From: Lachnospiraceae bacterium
Lineage (GTDB): Bacteria; Bacillota; Clostridia; Lachnospirales; Lachnospiraceae
Reading direction: 5' to 3'
Length of the DNA stretch: 64,000 nt
Assembly (NCBI GenBank): GCA_024696005.1
Contig: JAILHF010000051.1
Span: 124,001-188,000, forward strand
Position 1 is the first letter of the stretch. The number at the start of each line of letters is the position of its first letter. Of the stretch, positions 56,020 to 64,000 are shown one piece after another. The notes beneath the pieces were generated by a model. It ran no database searches. It saw nothing but the letters and a program-made list of their open reading frames with translations, and had not been told where the DNA came from. The position numbers were made by a program, and so were the translations under genes.

Positions 56020-56898
56020 TTACTCCCTGAAAAAGTGAACCCGGTTCTTTCCGGATTGTTTTACATGATACATAGCCATCTGCAGCTTGCTGTAAAGCGT
56101 GGCGTAATCCCTGCCGTGCCGCGGAATGAATACAGCGACGACCGAAGCCGTGAGCGGATCCCCTCCGCCTCTTGCCAGATTGGCCGCTTCCATTACCTGC
56201 CCGCTGATCTCTTCGCACCAGCCCATCAGCTCGGCCTCGGAAAGCTCCTGCGGGATATAGATCAGAAACTCGTCCTCGCCGCTGCGGGCAAGCAGGCTGT
56301 CAGCCAGCGCAATGCGCCCGAGTGCCTCGGCAAAACGCAGGATCACGCCGTTCGCGTTCCCGCCGCCCTGCTCCTCGCGAAGACGGTTGAAGCCGTCGAG
56401 GTCGACCATCACAAGCTCTGCGCCGTTCTGCTGCTCGCGTATCTTCGCATCTACCTCGGCCGCCATGTGTTCGCCGTTCAAAAGATCCGTCAGCAGGTCT
56501 TTTTTGGCGCTGCCGAGGATGTTCTGCCGCATGTCTTCCATCTGCAGAACATGCGCGATGCGCCCGAGCATCACATCCGCCTCAAAAGGCTTTGTGATGA
56601 AATCCAGGGCGCCCATCTTGATGCCGCGGACTTCGCTCTCCCTTTCCGTATCTGCCGTCAGAAAGATGATCGGGATGTTGGCAGTGCCCGGATTGAGCTT
56701 GATCTGCTCCATCGTTTCGTACCCGTCCATGTCCGGCATCATGATGTCGAGCAGGATCAGGTCGGGGCGGTTCTTCTTGAGAAAATTCAGAGCCTGCCGT
56801 CCGCTTTTGGCCATGGACAGATGATAAAAAGGCTGCAGGACTTCCGCAGCGCTTTTTAAGTTTGTGGTACTGTCATCAACCATCAAAATGTGTTTCAT
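56020..56898 (-). CDS. Response regulator with degenerate GGDEF domain
   Basis: The 292-residue protein has a receiver domain (about 1-120) with the phosphorylation site D51 (LLDIMMPDMDGY), T81 and K103 (ITKPFE). The C-terminal half follows the GGDEF fold (LLTDLLNGEHMA, VMVDLDGFNRLRE), but the signature reads SGEDEF where GGDEF is expected, so the second Gly of the loop is Glu. Cyclase activity is doubtful; it may bind nucleotide or partner proteins. The start overlaps the thrC stop as ATGA and a GGAGGTG ribosome site lies in the end of thrC. No histidine kinase gene is adjacent. Confidence 0.9.
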   Translation of the reverse strand: MKHILMVDDSTTNLKSAAEVLQPFYHLSMAKSGRQALNFLKKNRPDLILLDIMMPDMDGYETMEQIKLNPGTANIPIIFLTADTERESEVRGIKMGALDFITKPFEADVMLGRIAHVLQMEDMRQNILGSAKKDLLTDLLNGEHMAAEVDAKIREQQNGAELVMVDLDGFNRLREEQGGGNANGVILRFAEALGRIALADSLLARSGEDEFLIYIPQELSEAELMGWCEEISGQVMEAANLARGGGDPLTASVVAVFIPRHGRDYATLYSKLQMAMYHVKQSGKNRVHFFRE

Positions 56899-58418
56899 TT
56901 GAGGAATTCACGCACCTCCCGGGGCATGTCGGCTGTTTCGCAAACGATGTCGTGCAGCACGGGCGCCGAGCGGATGTCCTCGATCGCCTGCGGGATATCG
57001 ACCTTCGAAACTTCCTGCAGCTTATCGATCAATTCCATGTCGCCAAGCTTTCCGTATTCCGGATCGATGGCGCAAAGCACCGTGCGCGCGAATTTATAGG
57101 GGCTGGCGGTGGATGCGATCACGGTCGGTGTCTCATCCCCGCTTTCCTTCCGGTAACGGTCATAGACCATGCCGGCGACTGCCGTGTGAGGATCGATCAC
57201 ATAGGAGCAGTCGGCATAAAGTGAGCGGATCTTTTCCGCGGTATCCTCTTCCGAGGCATAGCCGTAGGAGAAGTCGGCAAGCTTTTCTTTCATGTCATCG
57301 CTGATCGCATAAGAACCCTTCGCATTCAGTTCCTTCATCAAGGCGGCGTTCTTTTCCTCGTCGCAGCCGGCGATCTGCCAGATCAGGCGCTCTAAGTTGC
57401 TCGAGATCAGGATGTCCATGGAAGGCGAGCCCGTAAGAACAAAGCTGCGCTCGCTGTCAAAGCTTCCGTTCGCCTCGTTTCTTTCGTGGAGCTTGTCATA
57501 GGTGCCGCTGGCGAAAAAGTCGGTCAGCACGCGGTTCTTGTTGGAGGCGCAGATCAGCTTCGCGATCGGGATCCCGAGCTGCTTGGCGTAAAAGGCTGCC
57601 AGGATGTTGCCGAAGTTGCCGGTCGGCACGCAGACATTGATCGCCTCTTTGTCGTGGATGCGTCCGCTGCGCAGCAGCGTGGTGTAGGCATAGACATAAT
57701 AGACAACCTGCGGGATCAGGCGCCCGATATTGATGGAATTGGCCGAGGAGAACACAAAGCCCTTCTGCTTCAGCTCTTCCTTCATTTCCGCATCGTTAAA
57801 GATCTGCTTTACGCCGGTCTGGGCATCGTCAAAATTGCCGGTAATGCCGACCACACGCACGTTTGAGCCGCGCTGGGTCACCATCTGTCTTTCCTGGACC
57901 GCGGAAACACCGTTCTTGGGATAAAAAACCATGATCCTGGTGCCGGGCACGTCCGCGAATCCGGCAAGAGCCGCTTTCCCGGTATCGCCGCTGGTGGCGG
58001 TGAGGATCACGATCTCTTCCTTCAGCGCGTTCTTTTTGGCCGCGGTTGTCATCAGATGCGGCAGGATCGAAAGTGCCATGTCCTTGAAAGCAATGGTCGC
58101 GCCGTGAAAAAGCTCCAGATAATAAGCGCCTCCGGCTGCGGCGATCGGCGCGATCTCCTCGCAGTCGAATTTCTCGTCATAGGCTTTTGCAATGCAGTTT
58201 TTCAGCTCATCTTCGGTATAATCCGTGAAAAAGAGCTTCATCACTTCGTAGGCCGTCTGCCGGTAGTCCATTCCTTTGAGTTCTTCGATGCTTTTGTCGA
58301 GCACGGGCATCTTCTCGGGAACGAACAGGCCTCCGTCTTCCGCAAGTCCCTGCAGGATCGCCTGAGAAGCCGTCAGCTTTATATTTTTGTCTCTTGTACT
58401 GTGATACAGAATCTCCAT
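56895..58418 (-). CDS. thrC: Threonine synthase
   Basis: Converts O-phosphohomoserine to threonine with PLP. The 507-residue length and the opening MEILYHSTRD mark the long E. coli/yeast type. The PLP lysine is K112 in GATIAFKDMALSILP; TATSGDTGKAAL binds the cofactor phosphate, and CVPTGNFGN is also conserved. The ribosome site is GGAAAGGA. A strong divergent promoter lies upstream. The leader of about 75 bases is GC-rich, and I see no T-box or leader peptide in it. Confidence 0.96.
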   Translation of the reverse strand: MEILYHSTRDKNIKLTASQAILQGLAEDGGLFVPEKMPVLDKSIEELKGMDYRQTAYEVMKLFFTDYTEDELKNCIAKAYDEKFDCEEIAPIAAAGGAYYLELFHGATIAFKDMALSILPHLMTTAAKKNALKEEIVILTATSGDTGKAALAGFADVPGTRIMVFYPKNGVSAVQERQMVTQRGSNVRVVGITGNFDDAQTGVKQIFNDAEMKEELKQKGFVFSSANSINIGRLIPQVVYYVYAYTTLLRSGRIHDKEAINVCVPTGNFGNILAAFYAKQLGIPIAKLICASNKNRVLTDFFASGTYDKLHERNEANGSFDSERSFVLTGSPSMDILISSNLERLIWQIAGCDEEKNAALMKELNAKGSYAISDDMKEKLADFSYGYASEEDTAEKIRSLYADCSYVIDPHTAVAGMVYDRYRKESGDETPTVIASTASPYKFARTVLCAIDPEYGKLGDMELIDKLQEVSKVDIPQAIEDIRSAPVLHDIVCETADMPREVREFLK

Positions 58419-58498: not shown

Positions 58499-58527
58499 AT
58501 TATAGCAGAAGAAACGCTTTCTTTCAA
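58499..58527 (-). promoter_or_regulatory. Promoter of thrC
   Basis: On the minus strand TTGAAA (58527-58522), 17-base spacer, TATAAT (58504-58499). It is divergent from the AP2 gene promoter, and both carry TCTGC directly before TATAAT. Confidence 0.8.
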
Positions 58528-58532
58528 GCATC

Positions 58533-58561
58533 TTGCCCCTCCGCGCACGCTCTGCTATAAT
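58533..58561 (+). promoter_or_regulatory. Promoter of the AP2 gene, leaderless geometry
   Basis: TTGCCC (58533-58538), 17-base spacer, perfect TATAAT (58556-58561). The ATG is six bases further on and no ribosome site precedes it. Confidence 0.75.
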
Positions 58562-58567
58562 CATTTT

Positions 58568-59362
58568 ATGAAAAAGGAGAATGCCGGCGTATATCCCGCG
58601 GCAAAAAAAGACGGCAGCATCTACTACCGTGCTTCCCTGACGCACAAGCGCAAACACATCAGTCTGGGAAGCTTCGAAACGGCGGAGGACGCACACCGCG
58701 CCTACAACCAGGCGAGGCTTGTTCTTCGTGATGCCTCCTGCGGCGTGCTCAATTACCGCAGTTCTTCCCTGCTTCCGTTCGAGAAATGGGTAAGCCTCAT
58801 CAATTTCCGGGATAACGGTCTCTACATCTCCAATCCGATCTACATCATGCGGCGCATGTTTCACTACTATCTCTCTCCCGACGAGATCCTGAAGTTCGAC
58901 GCGGAGGAGCTCTTCTTCTACAGTTCCCACAAGATCATGCGGCGCGGCAGCCATTATTTCGTTGCGGATTACGGTTCCCAGATCAACATTGCCAACCGCT
59001 ACGGCATCCGCTCCCACGCCGTGGAAGGGCGCGACTATTTCTTCCTGAACGGTGACGTGCTGGATTTCCGTTCCGCCAATCTGAAGATCGTGAACCGCTA
59101 TGTCGGCGTGACAAAGGAGGTACACCGCGGAAAGACCGTCTACCGCTGCCGCATCCACATCCGCGGCAATTTCATCGTCGGCGATTATGCGAGCGAGGAA
59201 GAAGCGGCCGCGGCCTACAACAAAGCCGCGGATCTGTTGAAACAGAAGGGGCTGAAAAGGGAATTTGCCAGGAACTACATCGAGAAGCTCAGCAAGGAGG
59301 AATATGAGGCTCTTTACGCTTCAGTCCGCATTTCGCAGAAGATCCGGGAGCTCAGCTTTTGA
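58568..59362 (+). CDS. Protein with two AP2-like DNA-binding domains around a degenerate HNH domain
   Basis: The 264-residue protein has an AP2-like domain at about 8-55 (GVYPAAKKDGSIYYRASL ... ISLGSFETAEDAHRAYNQA) and another at about 178-230 (YVGVTKEV ... YRCRIHIRGNFIVGDY ... EEEAAAAYNKAA). Bacterial AP2 domains mostly sit in HNH homing endonucleases. The segment between (about 128-178) aligns with such an HNH: FFLNGDVLDFRSANLKIV fits DHxNGxxLDNRxxNLRIV, but the catalytic His and the Asn of DNR are both Phe. Nuclease activity is therefore unlikely, and a DNA-binding or regulatory role is inferred. An ATG upstream at 58394 in frame lies within the thrC promoter and is rejected. Confidence 0.8.
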   Translation: MKKENAGVYPAAKKDGSIYYRASLTHKRKHISLGSFETAEDAHRAYNQARLVLRDASCGVLNYRSSSLLPFEKWVSLINFRDNGLYISNPIYIMRRMFHYYLSPDEILKFDAEELFFYSSHKIMRRGSHYFVADYGSQINIANRYGIRSHAVEGRDYFFLNGDVLDFRSANLKIVNRYVGVTKEVHRGKTVYRCRIHIRGNFIVGDYASEEEAAAAYNKAADLLKQKGLKREFARNYIEKLSKEEYEALYASVRISQKIRELSF

Positions 59363-59392: not shown

Positions 59393-59422
59393 AAAAAAGA
59401 CCGGGTTTTGCCCGGTCTTTTT
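59393..59422. terminator. Bidirectional terminator
   Basis: AAAAAAGACCGGG and CCCGGTCTTTTT arms between the AP2 gene and the convergent giant gene. Confidence 0.9.
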
Positions 59423-59445: not shown

Positions 59446-62400
59446 TCATTTCCCGTTTACGTTCACCGTGACCGTGATCGTCTTCCCGTCGACTTTTGCG
59501 GTGAATTTTGCTTTCCCGGCCCGTCTGGCACTCACCTTCCCGTTCTCGTCGATGAAGGCGATGTCGGGCTTGCTGCTCTTGAAGACCACGGCCTGCTTCA
59601 CATAGCCGAACGCGAGCTCCGGTTCATCCCCGGCGTTCAGCGTCAGGGTGTATTTGTTCTTCCCCTTTGCAGCTGCAAGCTTGGCGGCATCCGCATCGGA
59701 CGCGGTCTTGAGCGCAAGGTCTTCTGCGAAAAGAGATACGTGCCAGGCCGCGCCGTTTGCGCTTGCCGTGAGCGTGGTCGTGCCGCTGCTCTTTGCCGTG
59801 ACTTTGTTCTTGTCCATCCGGGCAATGTCGTCCGATGCGCTGCTCCAAACCGGCTTTTTCACACCGGTCAGGCTCAGGTTCTTGTGAGCGCCCACGGGAA
59901 GATGGAGGGTGCGCTCCGCGGCGGCTGTTTTCTCTTTGACCGTCACCGTGCAGTTATAGGCACTGCCGTTGATATAGGCGGTGATCTTTGCCCTGCCCTT
60001 GCCCACGGCTTTCACTGTGCCGTCCTGCTCCACCGTCGCCACATCCGGAGCGGCGCTGTGCCAATACACCGGAAGGCCGGCCGGGTTTGTAAGATCGATC
60101 TTTGCGCTCACCGATTCGTTCGCGCTTACCACGGTAAGGGTGAGGCTTTTTTTAACCGAAGGCTTGCTCACATGCACCGTTATGCTGCGGTCGCCGAAGT
60201 GTATCACGGCCTCGCCTTCCTTCTTGGCCTTGAACAGCCCTTTTTTGCTGATGCTCACGGTCCTTTTGGATTTTTTGTCTTTGCTGTCGATGTACCAGCC
60301 TTCTCCGATCGTGAATTTCTGCCCCTTTACCAGGAAGAGCTCCGTGGTCGAGGCATCGATCAGAGGCACGGGATCCAGCGGAGAATGCGTGCCGGAAACA
60401 TCGGAAGGATCTTTCATCCATTTGGCATATACGATGAGATCTGAAGTCACAGGCGTCTCAAAATCAAATGTTTTCGCGTAGGAAGCATCGGCAAACCAGC
60501 CGCCGAAAACATATTCCGCATCCGTCGGATCCGCAGGCTTTACCGCACGGTTTCCGGACACGACCTCCTGCGGCGCGACCGGCTCACCGTGTCCGCACAT
60601 GTTGAAACTCACGGAATGGAGCACCGCGTCTTTGTCGATCCATCTGGCGTAGATCACCGCATTTCTGCGGACCGGTGCATCGAAATCGAATTTCGTGATG
60701 CACTCCGCTTCGTTGTGCCAGCCGGCAAAGCGCAGCCCCTCCGCGGAAGGATCCTTGTCCGGCCTTGCTGCTTTTTCCCCGAGATCGACGTAAAGCGTCT
60801 CCGGCACATCTAAAGCGCTCTTTCCGTTCGTGTCAAAGTGCAGCTCTGCGATCTCTCGCTGCTGCTCTTCAAAACGATCATCCGCAAAGCTTGCCGTATA
60901 TCTGCGGTATGTGTCCATTTCTTCGATGCTGCAGGAGGCCGTTTCACTGATCCTGTGGGAAGGATCGTTTTTGCAGACCATGCTTGCGGTAACACTCCTG
61001 AGATCATCGCTCCATTCGTAGACCGCCCCTTCCCAGTCGTGCCCGGTTTTCGGCACAGGCACATCCGTTTTGCTCTGCGCACTGAAGAGCGGGTTTGCAA
61101 ACGCCTCCGAGGTGAAGCTTGCGATGCCGTCCTCCTCACAGGTGGCTGCTTTGCTGTAGACGGCGTTCACACTGACTTCTTCGGTCAGAACATGGGCGCT
61201 GTCATTCCTGCAGATGCAGGAGGCTGATACCGTTTTCATGTCATCCGCCCAGACGTAGCTCACCGTCGCGGGATCCCAGTCATGAGCATTCACATCGATC
61301 GGTATGATCACATCCTCGTATGTGCCGATCGCCTGATAATTTCCGTCAAGGATATAGGCTCCGCAGTCATTACAGTATACGTACCAGGTATTCCCGGACA
61401 CACTACAGGTGGGTTCTTGCGCCTCGTGAACAACTCCCCCCTTCACGCGTCCGTGATAGCCGTTCAGGGTAACAAAAGGATCCTCGAGCTCCGTTATATC
61501 ATAATGGAATACGTTTTTTTCCTCATCCCAGACGTAACGGTGATGGCAGTCAGTACACTCCGCGTATCCGTAGGTTCCGATCTCATCACAGGCCGGCGGA
61601 TTTCCCTTATGGTATTCCCAGCTGTGTTCGTGATCTTCTTTCACTTTGAAAATGCCTTCAATATGGACCTTTTTTGCATATTCGGGCGCCTTTGACAGAT
61701 CCGGGAATTCATACGTAAACTTCCCGTCCGTCAGATCTTCGGGGTAGATGTTTTTGAATTTGTATCCGCTGTGATAATCGTCATAAACCACGACACCGGA
61801 TAGGAAGTACAGCTCAAACGCTTCTTCCGTTGTCACCGTGAGTGTCACGATCTCATTCATGCTCACAAATTCTTTGTCCACCGTGACAAGTCCGCCCGGG
61901 TTGGAATACACCTCGATATGGTAGGTCGTATCGTCGGTATAGCAGGCATAGAGACGGAGCGTTCCATAGACCGCTTTTTGAAAATCATACAGATCTTCGG
62001 CTCTGGCGGAATTGTCGTCAAAGCTTCTTGTATACCATCCAAGGAAAGTATGACCTTCATGGGAAGGCGCGGGGCTTGGAGGATCGACTTTTTCGGCGTG
62101 TTTTACGCGCACTTCCACTGAGTTTCCGTCGCCGTATTTGTCATAAAAATACACGGACTCGAAAAGCAGGTCTTTCCACTGTGCCTGAACTGTCAGATCC
62201 TTGGTGACTTTCAGCCGGCTGCCCGGATAATGGTAATACCCGTCGACGAACCATCTGGTAAAGGCTTTTTCCGCATTCGCAGGCGCAAACTCACAATCCG
62301 GGAAGGTCAGATATTCGCCGTCCGCAACCTGCAGACTTTCCATGCTTCCGCTGCCGCCGTTTGCGTCAAAGCTGACCGAATGCAGTGTTTTCCATTTTGC

Positions 62401-64000
62401 ATAAAGCGTGATATTGGCTTTCACCGGAGTGCCGAAGTCAAACACGCTGCCATCCGTGCAGCCCTCATCCACATGCCAGCCGCCGAAGAAATAACCTTCC
62501 CGGACCGGTGCTTCGGGTTCGGTCGCACAGCTTCCCGTGCGGATCGTCTGCGGGGCGACGGCACTGCCGCCCTTCGGATCGAAGGTCACCGTAACACTCT
62601 CCGATGACCAATGCGCATACAGCGTCATGTCTTCCGTGACAGGGGTGTTGAAATCAAAGGCTTTCGCTCTCTCGTTTACACCGACATGCCAGCCCTTGAA
62701 GCGGTAGCCATCTGCTGTGGGATCCTTCGGTTTTGTCAGCTTTTTCCCTTTTTCGATCGTCTGCGGGGCAGGCGCTGTTCCGTGGCCGTTGGCGTTAAAG
62801 GTGACCGTCACGGATTCCACGATGTTTAATTCGCCTGCGGAGATCAGGCGGGCGCTTCCGGCATAATCCGTATGCTGATCGTCGTTGATCTCCTCCGCAA
62901 AGATATAGACCTTATAGCTTTTGTCCCAATCCTTTACATCCAGGGAAGAAGGAAGGGTAAAGCTTCCCGTCCCGTTTTTAGAATACCGCCCGTCAAGGCT
63001 CAGCCGGTAATAATAGAGGATCCGGGCTCCGTTCTGATCCGAGAGATCCTTCGGCAGTGCCTTATCCAGGATCAGCACCGAAACGGCATCGGGCTTCACG
63101 GGATTGCTGTCGTCATAGTTCAGTGTGTAAGGGATGCTCACCTTGTTTCCCAGGACGCTCACTTTCTGACCTACACTGATCTCGGTCCGGATGTTATCAA
63201 GGGTCAGCGTGAGTTTGTAAGCCGTATCCGTTTCACCCTTTTTTCCGTTCACGGCTGTGGAAAAGAGCACCTGGTTTAAGTCGATGTTAAAGGCCGGGCA
63301 TACCCCCCTGCCGGAATCGGCAAACTGGTTATAGAGCTCGCCGTCCTTCTTCACGCTGCCAGAGCAATGATGATTCGAGCAGGAGGACCGCAGCCACCAG
63401 CCGGCATGCGCCGGATCCTTGGAAGACATCGCACGCTGACCGCTCTTGACATCCCTGTCCGTAAATCCGTAGGAGCTTCTCGTTACTTCCTTCGCGTCCG
63501 GAAGAAAGATCTTATCGCCGTTTAGTTTTGCAAAGGAAAGAAGGCTTCCCCCTCTTCCGTCGTTGCCGGCGGCGGCTTTTTTGTAACTTGCTTTCACGGC
63601 CGCTCGTTCCGGTGCGGAAAACACATCATGATCCAGAAAGTCGTCCCCGTTCAGCCCGAAGCGGATGCTGCTCATTTCCCATTCCTCGAAGTCCGGATCA
63701 AAAGGCGCATCATAAAGGACCTTATTCGACATAAGGAGCATCGTATATCCGTCGCTGCCTCCGAAATCGGAACTATGCGGGTCCAATACCCGGTACTTGA
63801 CGGGCGTACCGTCGTATCTGCCGTACCAGACAAAGCTCCCGTGCCAGGGATCGCTCGCATACATGGGGAGCCTGGGCTTTGCCATGCCGGCGGTTCCAAG
63901 GAGCGAGTTCTCGGCGCTTTTCACCGCGCTTCCGCCGCGCCCGTCCCTGCCGGCGCCCTCCGGTGCCGGAACATCTCCGGATTCCGTTTCCGGGGCGGCA
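59446..64000 (-). CDS. Second giant secreted protein, DUF6273-like and InlB-type repeats (N-terminus off window)
   Basis: The frame is open through the right edge, so at least 1517 residues are seen and the signal peptide lies beyond base 64000. The first domain matches the DUF6273-like domain of the giant protein at 22196 (SFVWYGRYDGTPVKYRVLD ... WWLRSSCSN ... GVCPAFNIDLNQVLF). Ig-like, several InlB-type repeats (FDPKGGSAVAPQ, FNMCGHGEPVAPQ, ending LYAHW/VYAKW) and His/Cys-containing segments (AECTDCHHRYVWDEE) follow. The C-terminus has BIG2-like domains and no sorting signal. Residue V in AVKSAENS at 63922-63924 is internal, not a start. Confidence 0.9.
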   Translation of the reverse strand, partial: AAPETESGDVPAPEGAGRDGRGGSAVKSAENSLLGTAGMAKPRLPMYASDPWHGSFVWYGRYDGTPVKYRVLDPHSSDFGGSDGYTMLLMSNKVLYDAPFDPDFEEWEMSSIRFGLNGDDFLDHDVFSAPERAAVKASYKKAAAGNDGRGGSLLSFAKLNGDKIFLPDAKEVTRSSYGFTDRDVKSGQRAMSSKDPAHAGWWLRSSCSNHHCSGSVKKDGELYNQFADSGRGVCPAFNIDLNQVLFSTAVNGKKGETDTAYKLTLTLDNIRTEISVGQKVSVLGNKVSIPYTLNYDDSNPVKPDAVSVLILDKALPKDLSDQNGARILYYYRLSLDGRYSKNGTGSFTLPSSLDVKDWDKSYKVYIFAEEINDDQHTDYAGSARLISAGELNIVESVTVTFNANGHGTAPAPQTIEKGKKLTKPKDPTADGYRFKGWHVGVNERAKAFDFNTPVTEDMTLYAHWSSESVTVTFDPKGGSAVAPQTIRTGSCATEPEAPVREGYFFGGWHVDEGCTDGSVFDFGTPVKANITLYAKWKTLHSVSFDANGGSGSMESLQVADGEYLTFPDCEFAPANAEKAFTRWFVDGYYHYPGSRLKVTKDLTVQAQWKDLLFESVYFYDKYGDGNSVEVRVKHAEKVDPPSPAPSHEGHTFLGWYTRSFDDNSARAEDLYDFQKAVYGTLRLYACYTDDTTYHIEVYSNPGGLVTVDKEFVSMNEIVTLTVTTEEAFELYFLSGVVVYDDYHSGYKFKNIYPEDLTDGKFTYEFPDLSKAPEYAKKVHIEGIFKVKEDHEHSWEYHKGNPPACDEIGTYGYAECTDCHHRYVWDEEKNVFHYDITELEDPFVTLNGYHGRVKGGVVHEAQEPTCSVSGNTWYVYCNDCGAYILDGNYQAIGTYEDVIIPIDVNAHDWDPATVSYVWADDMKTVSASCICRNDSAHVLTEEVSVNAVYSKAATCEEDGIASFTSEAFANPLFSAQSKTDVPVPKTGHDWEGAVYEWSDDLRSVTASMVCKNDPSHRISETASCSIEEMDTYRRYTASFADDRFEEQQREIAELHFDTNGKSALDVPETLYVDLGEKAARPDKDPSAEGLRFAGWHNEAECITKFDFDAPVRRNAVIYARWIDKDAVLHSVSFNMCGHGEPVAPQEVVSGNRAVKPADPTDAEYVFGGWFADASYAKTFDFETPVTSDLIVYAKWMKDPSDVSGTHSPLDPVPLIDASTTELFLVKGQKFTIGEGWYIDSKDKKSKRTVSISKKGLFKAKKEGEAVIHFGDRSITVHVSKPSVKKSLTLTVVSANESVSAKIDLTNPAGLPVYWHSAAPDVATVEQDGTVKAVGKGRAKITAYINGSAYNCTVTVKEKTAAAERTLHLPVGAHKNLSLTGVKKPVWSSASDDIARMDKNKVTAKSSGTTTLTASANGAAWHVSLFAEDLALKTASDADAAKLAAAKGKNKYTLTLNAGDEPELAFGYVKQAVVFKSSKPDIAFIDENGKVSARRAGKAKFTAKVDGKTITVTVNVNGK

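Follow-up and report, generated by a model that had tools for sequence, protein, structure and literature searches.

A probable domesticated HNH-AP2 endonuclease, with a dead HNH region between AP2 domains, in Lachnospiraceae and other families of its order

We describe a bacterial gene for what is very probably a dead, domesticated HNH-AP2 protein, located at 58568..59362 (plus strand) of the window, that is, of the whole stretch of 64,000 nucleotides of Lachnospiraceae DNA, from a gut bacterium, that was analysed. The initial annotation had suggested a selfish nuclease turned into a DNA-binding regulator. Domestication is well borne out, as the catalytic His and Asn are lost in all 112 homologues read, dN/dS is low, conservation peaks in the dead region, the gene occupies one place in nearly every genome that has it and its tree follows taxonomy. 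The marks of a domesticated endonuclease (catalytic residues lost, chromosomal location, vertical inheritance, purifying selection) were thus all found, and the mobile or patchy distribution of HNH-AP2 homing endonucleases was not. On balance we favour a role as DNA-binding regulator of neighbouring genes, which is suggested by the two AP2 domains, the basic pI, the divergent layout and the Leu/Ile-Val neighbours of one subclade. The explanation as a whole, a domesticated phage-type HNH-AP2 endonuclease that would bind an extended site and control its divergent neighbours, seems likely.

The open reading frame had been annotated correctly in its coordinates, its ATG start at 58568 and its stop, and it encodes a protein of 264 aa (P0001). 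Two AP2-like domains around an HNH-like segment had been proposed, and model folds, Pfam AP2 stretches and hhalign all agree with this arrangement. In the AlphaFold model of the window protein, made from 28 sequences (pLDDT 91.8, pTM 0.78), the N-terminal domain (58586..58729, plus strand, approximately residues 7-54; Pfam AP2 and model) consists of strands 8-12, 18-26 and 29-36 and helix 39-54, and the C-terminal domain (59099..59245, plus strand, approximately residues 178-226; hhalign and model) of strands 181-186, 189-197 and 201-207 and helix 210-226, so that both copies show the strand and helix order of AP2, a three-stranded sheet packed on a helix. A conserved helix with strands, seen in the alignment and the model and carrying the motif FEKWVSLINFRDN..YI..P, precedes the HNH part (58763..58885, plus strand, residues 66-106). 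The pI of six proteins of the family lies between 8.2 and 9.5.

Profile searches with AP2 and HNH_3 models had been suggested as a check. Pfam PF00847 (AP2) matched the window protein in two stretches at E 3.8e-7, though its 30.7 bits fall short of the gathering score, 33.3. HNH_3 (PF13392) gave no match in the window protein and reached ten of the 28 members weakly at E<=1, the best at 0.003, whereas two intact viral-contig proteins matched it at 7.5e-8 and 3.2e-8. Pfam AP2 itself reached just 19 of the 28 aligned members at E<=1. Two HNH-endonuclease families of PHROG, phrog_99 and phrog_953, matched 28/28 members at E<=0.1, and PHROG HNH-endonuclease families matched the window protein at E down to 9.4e-14, the matched stretches being the N-terminal AP2 domain and not the HNH part. 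No NCBIfam model matched the window protein at E<=10, and the same scan of the 28 aligned members gave just three chance-like matches, in one member each. In the structural check, two AP2 folds were modelled, and no HNH structure was named among the 50 PDB matches listed by Foldseek. AP2 proteins stood at the top of these matches, with WRI1 first (E 3.2e-3), then TEM1 and, in tenth place, AtERF96. None of them had E<=1e-3, and 34 viral models reached 1e-3, of which 16 bear HNH or other endonuclease names. The homologues of one family (f2, L107-L112) are 340-365 aa long and carry a third, C-terminal AP2 domain. In the two proteins tested it was recognised by Pfam AP2 (E 1e-3 and E 2e-4), hhalign aligned five of the copies with viral-contig AP2 (97.7%), and the sixth (L111) was recognised by eye.

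The middle segment (58886..59095, plus strand, residues 107-176) lines up with the HNH part of intact HNH-AP2 proteins, as had been claimed. Blastp matched the window protein to an intact viral-contig HNH-AP2 protein over residues 107-244 (31% identity, E 4e-11), and hhalign joined the two families over 69 columns, 159 to 227 (97.7%, E 2.1e-12). The two methods agree that F159 corresponds to the His of the DH motif, F167 to the LDNR Asn and N171 to the Asn in NL, so that the catalytic His and the LDNR Asn are, as initially read, both Phe in the window protein. The changed residues are Phe158-Phe159 at 59039..59044, of which Phe159 replaces the catalytic His, Phe167 at 59066..59068 and Asn143 at 58994..58996 (all plus strand). 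Blastp aligned the last of these with the His of HR, a position at which none of 112 homologues has His. F158 matches the Asp of DH only in an ungapped extension, and blastp puts a gap there; Asp occurs at this position in 3/112 homologues. The invariant D156 sits two residues above F158 and might be a shifted Asp.

The 112 homologues are 34-75% identical to the window protein and remain from 138 extracted proteins after removal of three short ones (L057, L090, L131) and 23 repeats; they come from the loci of each search's best matches and 40 chosen regions, not from all the matches found in the order. The initial annotation had asked whether the Phe replacements are fixed. At the His position they nearly are (F in 111, Q in one), and the Asn position is variable (F in 76, L in 22, Y in 11, M in three) and never holds Asn. 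No homologue among the 112 keeps an intact catalytic set. Such sets were seen in viral contigs, in phage HNH-AP2 homing endonucleases, which the available part of PMC10448857 names IPA-HNH HEGs. These enzymes resemble the present family in that AP2 follows their HNH part (31% by blastp, 97.7% by hhalign), and differ from it in keeping their catalytic residues and in lacking AP2 before HNH, both of which are reversed here. In a control of 87 viral-contig loci (84 distinct proteins, chosen partly via the DH pattern), DH was present in 87/87 and the LDNR Asn in 82; no AP2 domain preceded HNH in any locus, and one followed it in 82 loci and two in five, as counted with an AP2 model built from five of the control's own proteins. 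The N-terminal AP2 domain is thus indeed extra compared with the HNH-AP2 proteins of these loci.

Might the protein still be a nuclease whose active site has been displaced? D156, R168 and N171 are invariant in 112 rows and R144 is kept in 111, and D156 could serve as a shifted metal ligand. Such an activity is nevertheless highly improbable, since the DH His and the LDNR Asn are gone from 112/112 homologues. No His column reaches 97% of the rows either (the best are H30 with 105, H197 with 99, H121 with 94 and H129 with 89), so that nothing points to an HNH-type general base at a new position. The gene also shows no sign of mobility, with no match on plasmids and a taxonomic tree.

Selection on the domesticated, dead protein has been strong. 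NG86 dN/dS ranged from 0.017 to 0.198 in 26 close pairs (at least 80% identity, dS<1.8), many of them with dS near saturation. The HNH region had dN of 0-0.06 throughout, and in 17 of the 26 pairs none of the other four regions had a lower value. The HNH region is also the best conserved region by mean majority fraction (0.73, compared with 0.60-0.63 for the AP2 domains and linker, 0.63 for residues 62-106 and 0.52 for the tail). These dN/dS values contradict the reading of the gene as a decaying remnant of a selfish element, to which the lost catalytic residues and a homologue in genome G304 with a stop within the matched frame could otherwise point; together with the retention of the gene in much of the order and its own promoter-like and terminator-like signals, they leave such a reading next to no probability. 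The homologue in question (L131) is apparently a broken copy.

The gene was found in 51 of 98 genomes, our own included and among them 32 of the 34 others of the genus, and 50 of these 51 genomes have it in one place; in the window's own genome P0001 gave a single match. The wider samples gave 111/392 genomes of the order and 5/398 of the phylum, the latter including our own and all belonging to the window's family. A profile search of 291 genomes of the class gave eight matches of the window's family, and its single match outside the order covered 33 AP2-sized residues at E 0.006; no full-length relative outside the order was found in the sampled phylum and class genomes, and no match in the plasmids searched. 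In a quick tree, in which 36 of the 109 inner branches have good support, the family labels need five changes, the minimum possible, when loci on genome contigs are given the label f1 by hand.

Viral collections yielded few members of the family itself. A first scan confirmed no relative among eight stretches, and a viral profile scan turned up a single family member, which is partial (L090), besides seven HNH-AP2 matches. Two records filed as phages, MT836856.1 (L247) and MT837267.1 (L248), look like host DNA because they carry gltA and thrC in the first case and leuC (NCBIfam) and, by eye, leuS in the second. The partial member lies on an IMG/VR contig with leuD and part of leuC beside genes that by eye encode a phage polymerase and a recombination protein, and this contig is either a host-prophage junction or a chimera; a third viral-collection match (H3) covers 29 residues. 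A phage origin of the present gene was considered and rejected, as the viral-collection records with family members carry bacterial genes. Taken with the tree that follows taxonomy, these bacterial genes indicate a vertically kept host gene of Lachnospiraceae and other families of the order.

Viral contigs often carry HNH-AP2 relatives (at least 450 were confirmed, 80 of them listed). The abundance of these relatives, and the fact that the DNA-binding parts are kept here while the cutting residues are lost, would fit a protein that shields host or phage sites from cutting by intact HNH-AP2 nucleases. We consider such a shield very unlikely: taxonomic inheritance and slow evolution are unlike those of arms-race genes, and the searches gave no intact partner of close similarity, identity in the blastp match being 31%.

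Proteins of this kind are already known. In WhiA, a regulator of bacteria, a homing-endonuclease domain has degenerated and lost its metal-binding and catalytic residues (available part of PMC3781837), and this protein offers a precedent for a regulator of such descent. The difference lies in the domains, LAGLIDADG and a binding helix-turn-helix in WhiA as far as the same part of PMC3781837 describes it, and HNH with two AP2 domains here. Neither LAGLIDADG nor helix-turn-helix domains were among the Pfam matches of the window protein or of 28 members. PLEs are mobile satellites. Their protein CapR derives from T5orf172 genes and is PLE-encoded, according to the available part of PMC10448857, and differs from the present protein in both respects. 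Plant AP2/ERF factors are a proposed parallel, since their AP2 domains have been suggested to derive from HNH-AP2 homing genes (Magnani et al. 2004, as given in the available part of PMC10448857). WRI1, the best PDB match of our model, is a likeness to that group. To our knowledge, plant AP2 factors keep no HNH scaffold, whereas here, in bacteria, the scaffold is retained and is the best conserved part; we know of no plant in which the middle of the path from HNH-AP2 to plant AP2 has been seen. What appears new is the HNH-AP2 version of the theme, with its retained scaffold, order-wide spread, three-AP2 variant and probable leaderless mRNA. No report of an AP2 / dead-HNH / AP2 family was found among the titles listed by a literature search that covered mainly open-access papers. 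A bacterial lineage appears to have taken the step from cutter to regulator with the nuclease scaffold in place, which makes the change directly testable. A large bacterial order with gut members also gains a DNA-binding family, one that has weak or sub-threshold Pfam matches and, among the members scanned, no NCBIfam model.

In the window the gene is divergent from thrC, encoding threonine synthase (56895..58418, minus strand; TIGR00260 at 219.6 bits against a cut-off of 167.1, and Pfam), across a gap of 149 bp. According to tblastn within the available flanks, which extend from 53 bp (L035, where the sequence ends) to approximately 8 kb upstream, 55 of the 69 loci have thrC upstream in divergent orientation, and two have it arranged otherwise. 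It is absent from the flank in 12 loci (L035, L037, L107-L112, L125, L126, L130, L132), among them 6/6 of family f2 and 2/2 of f24. These counts rest on tblastn, as an ORF-based neighbour table of 67 loci missed some genes. The initial annotation had the gene divergent from thrC with a promoter; this describes the window well and does not extend to thrC as immediate neighbour in 31 of the 55 loci, where a cell-wall hydrolase gene lies between (Pfam Hydrolase_2 in the two tested, tblastn in the others). The remaining loci have a gap of less than 500 bp (18) or a larger one (six). In three loci (L134, L136, L137) the gene has thrC on one side and leuD-leuC on the other, with ilvC-ilvN further along in L136 and L137, and in L130 and L132 it is beside ilvC-ilvN without thrC; NCBIfam checked ilvC and ilvN of L130, leuD of L134 and leuC of L248, and the rest were named by likeness. 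L130 and L132 have, across the gene from ilvC-ilvN, two genes that by eye are AzlC/AzlD-like, for which NCBIfam gave no family at threshold. Five of the six f2 loci have the gene divergent from transketolase (L107 checked).

The claimed promoter was recovered in a consensus scan as TTGCCC-17-TATAAT with TG before the -10 box (58533..58561, plus strand), back to back with a second promoter-like site towards thrC, TTGAAA-17-TATAAT (58499..58527, minus strand), the -35 boxes being 5 bp apart; 0.6 such sites were expected in shuffles. The -10 box of the gene ends 6 nt before the ATG at 58568, and a leaderless mRNA is therefore probable. In 28/112 homologues, spread over several separate clades, a -10-like box lies 5-7 nt upstream of the start codon; the mean in 200 single-base shuffles is 4.1 and the maximum nine, and none of 60 thrC starts has such a box. 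Of the 28, 27 have no ribosome-site-like sequence, by a loose pattern that is lacking in 55/112 homologues overall.

No family-wide operator emerged from Gibbs sampling of 79 upstream regions, which gave just ribosome-site-like and AT-rich patterns that outscore single-base shuffles and indicate no specific site. Exact copies of CTGWATAAAATATTA, a conserved upstream element, were found in 6/7 genomes, one each in five and two in one, and at one or two copies per genome it marks no regulon. In 12 loci (L041, L044-L047, L049-L053, L055, L057) a near-invariant promoter block between the gene and the divergent cell-wall hydrolase gene holds the palindrome TTCTGTA-N8-TACAGAA, which overlaps the promoter-like sites of both genes. 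Its core is also found upstream in L042, L048, L022-L025 and L029, and in all it occurs in 18/112 upstream regions with at most two mismatches, against 0.2 in shuffled ones, the window not being among them; with one mismatch allowed, a related pattern is no commoner than the reversed control in 4/7 genomes. As the palindrome is confined to some clades, overlaps promoter-like sites and does not occur among these regions in the window, we did not take it as evidence of binding by the AP2 / dead-HNH / AP2 protein.

These upstream and neighbourhood data bear on whether the regulation would be local. The thrC-side synteny may reflect mere slow rearrangement, and the protein could then be a domesticated DNA-binding factor that structures the chromosome or acts globally, with the proximity to thrC inherited. 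The lack of a common operator in the Gibbs sampling, the other neighbours in f2, f24, L130 and L132 and the failure of CTGWATAAAATATTA to mark a regulon would suit such a factor. We think this unlikely in view of the back-to-back promoter-like sites in the window, the near-invariant promoter block in the 12 loci and, within one subclade, the five loci where leuCD or ilvCN adjoins the gene.

For a regulator of neighbouring genes, the following course of events can be proposed. Domestication of a phage-type HNH-AP2 homing endonuclease would have taken place in an ancestor shared by much of the order, and, judging from the sequence, its catalytic His and Asn were lost, strong selection has kept its scaffold and a second AP2 domain was placed in front. 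Homing enzymes read one long asymmetric site. Similarly, the two non-identical AP2 domains of one basic chain may together bind a single extended, asymmetric DNA site, with the former HNH fold keeping them in register or carrying a dimer or ligand contact. Binding would control the divergent neighbours, which in the window are thrC and the gene itself, from a position between both -35 boxes, and the likely theme would be the supply of threonine and branched-chain amino acids. More speculatively, and in our opinion improbably, the proteins could be order-wide AP2 factors in which the dead pocket, refilled by aromatic or aliphatic residues, has become a sensing or dimerising core that couples threonine or branched-chain status to expression, one family having the order AP2-HNH-AP2-AP2.

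Downstream of the gene, a terminator-like hairpin followed by T's is found at 59394..59422 (plus strand), with a folding energy of -19.4 kcal/mol (z -5.8) and no entry in the consensus scan. Beyond it, the minus strand holds an ORF of 1492 aa (59446-63924) whose repeats by eye resemble surface repeats of the Listeria-Bacteroides type.
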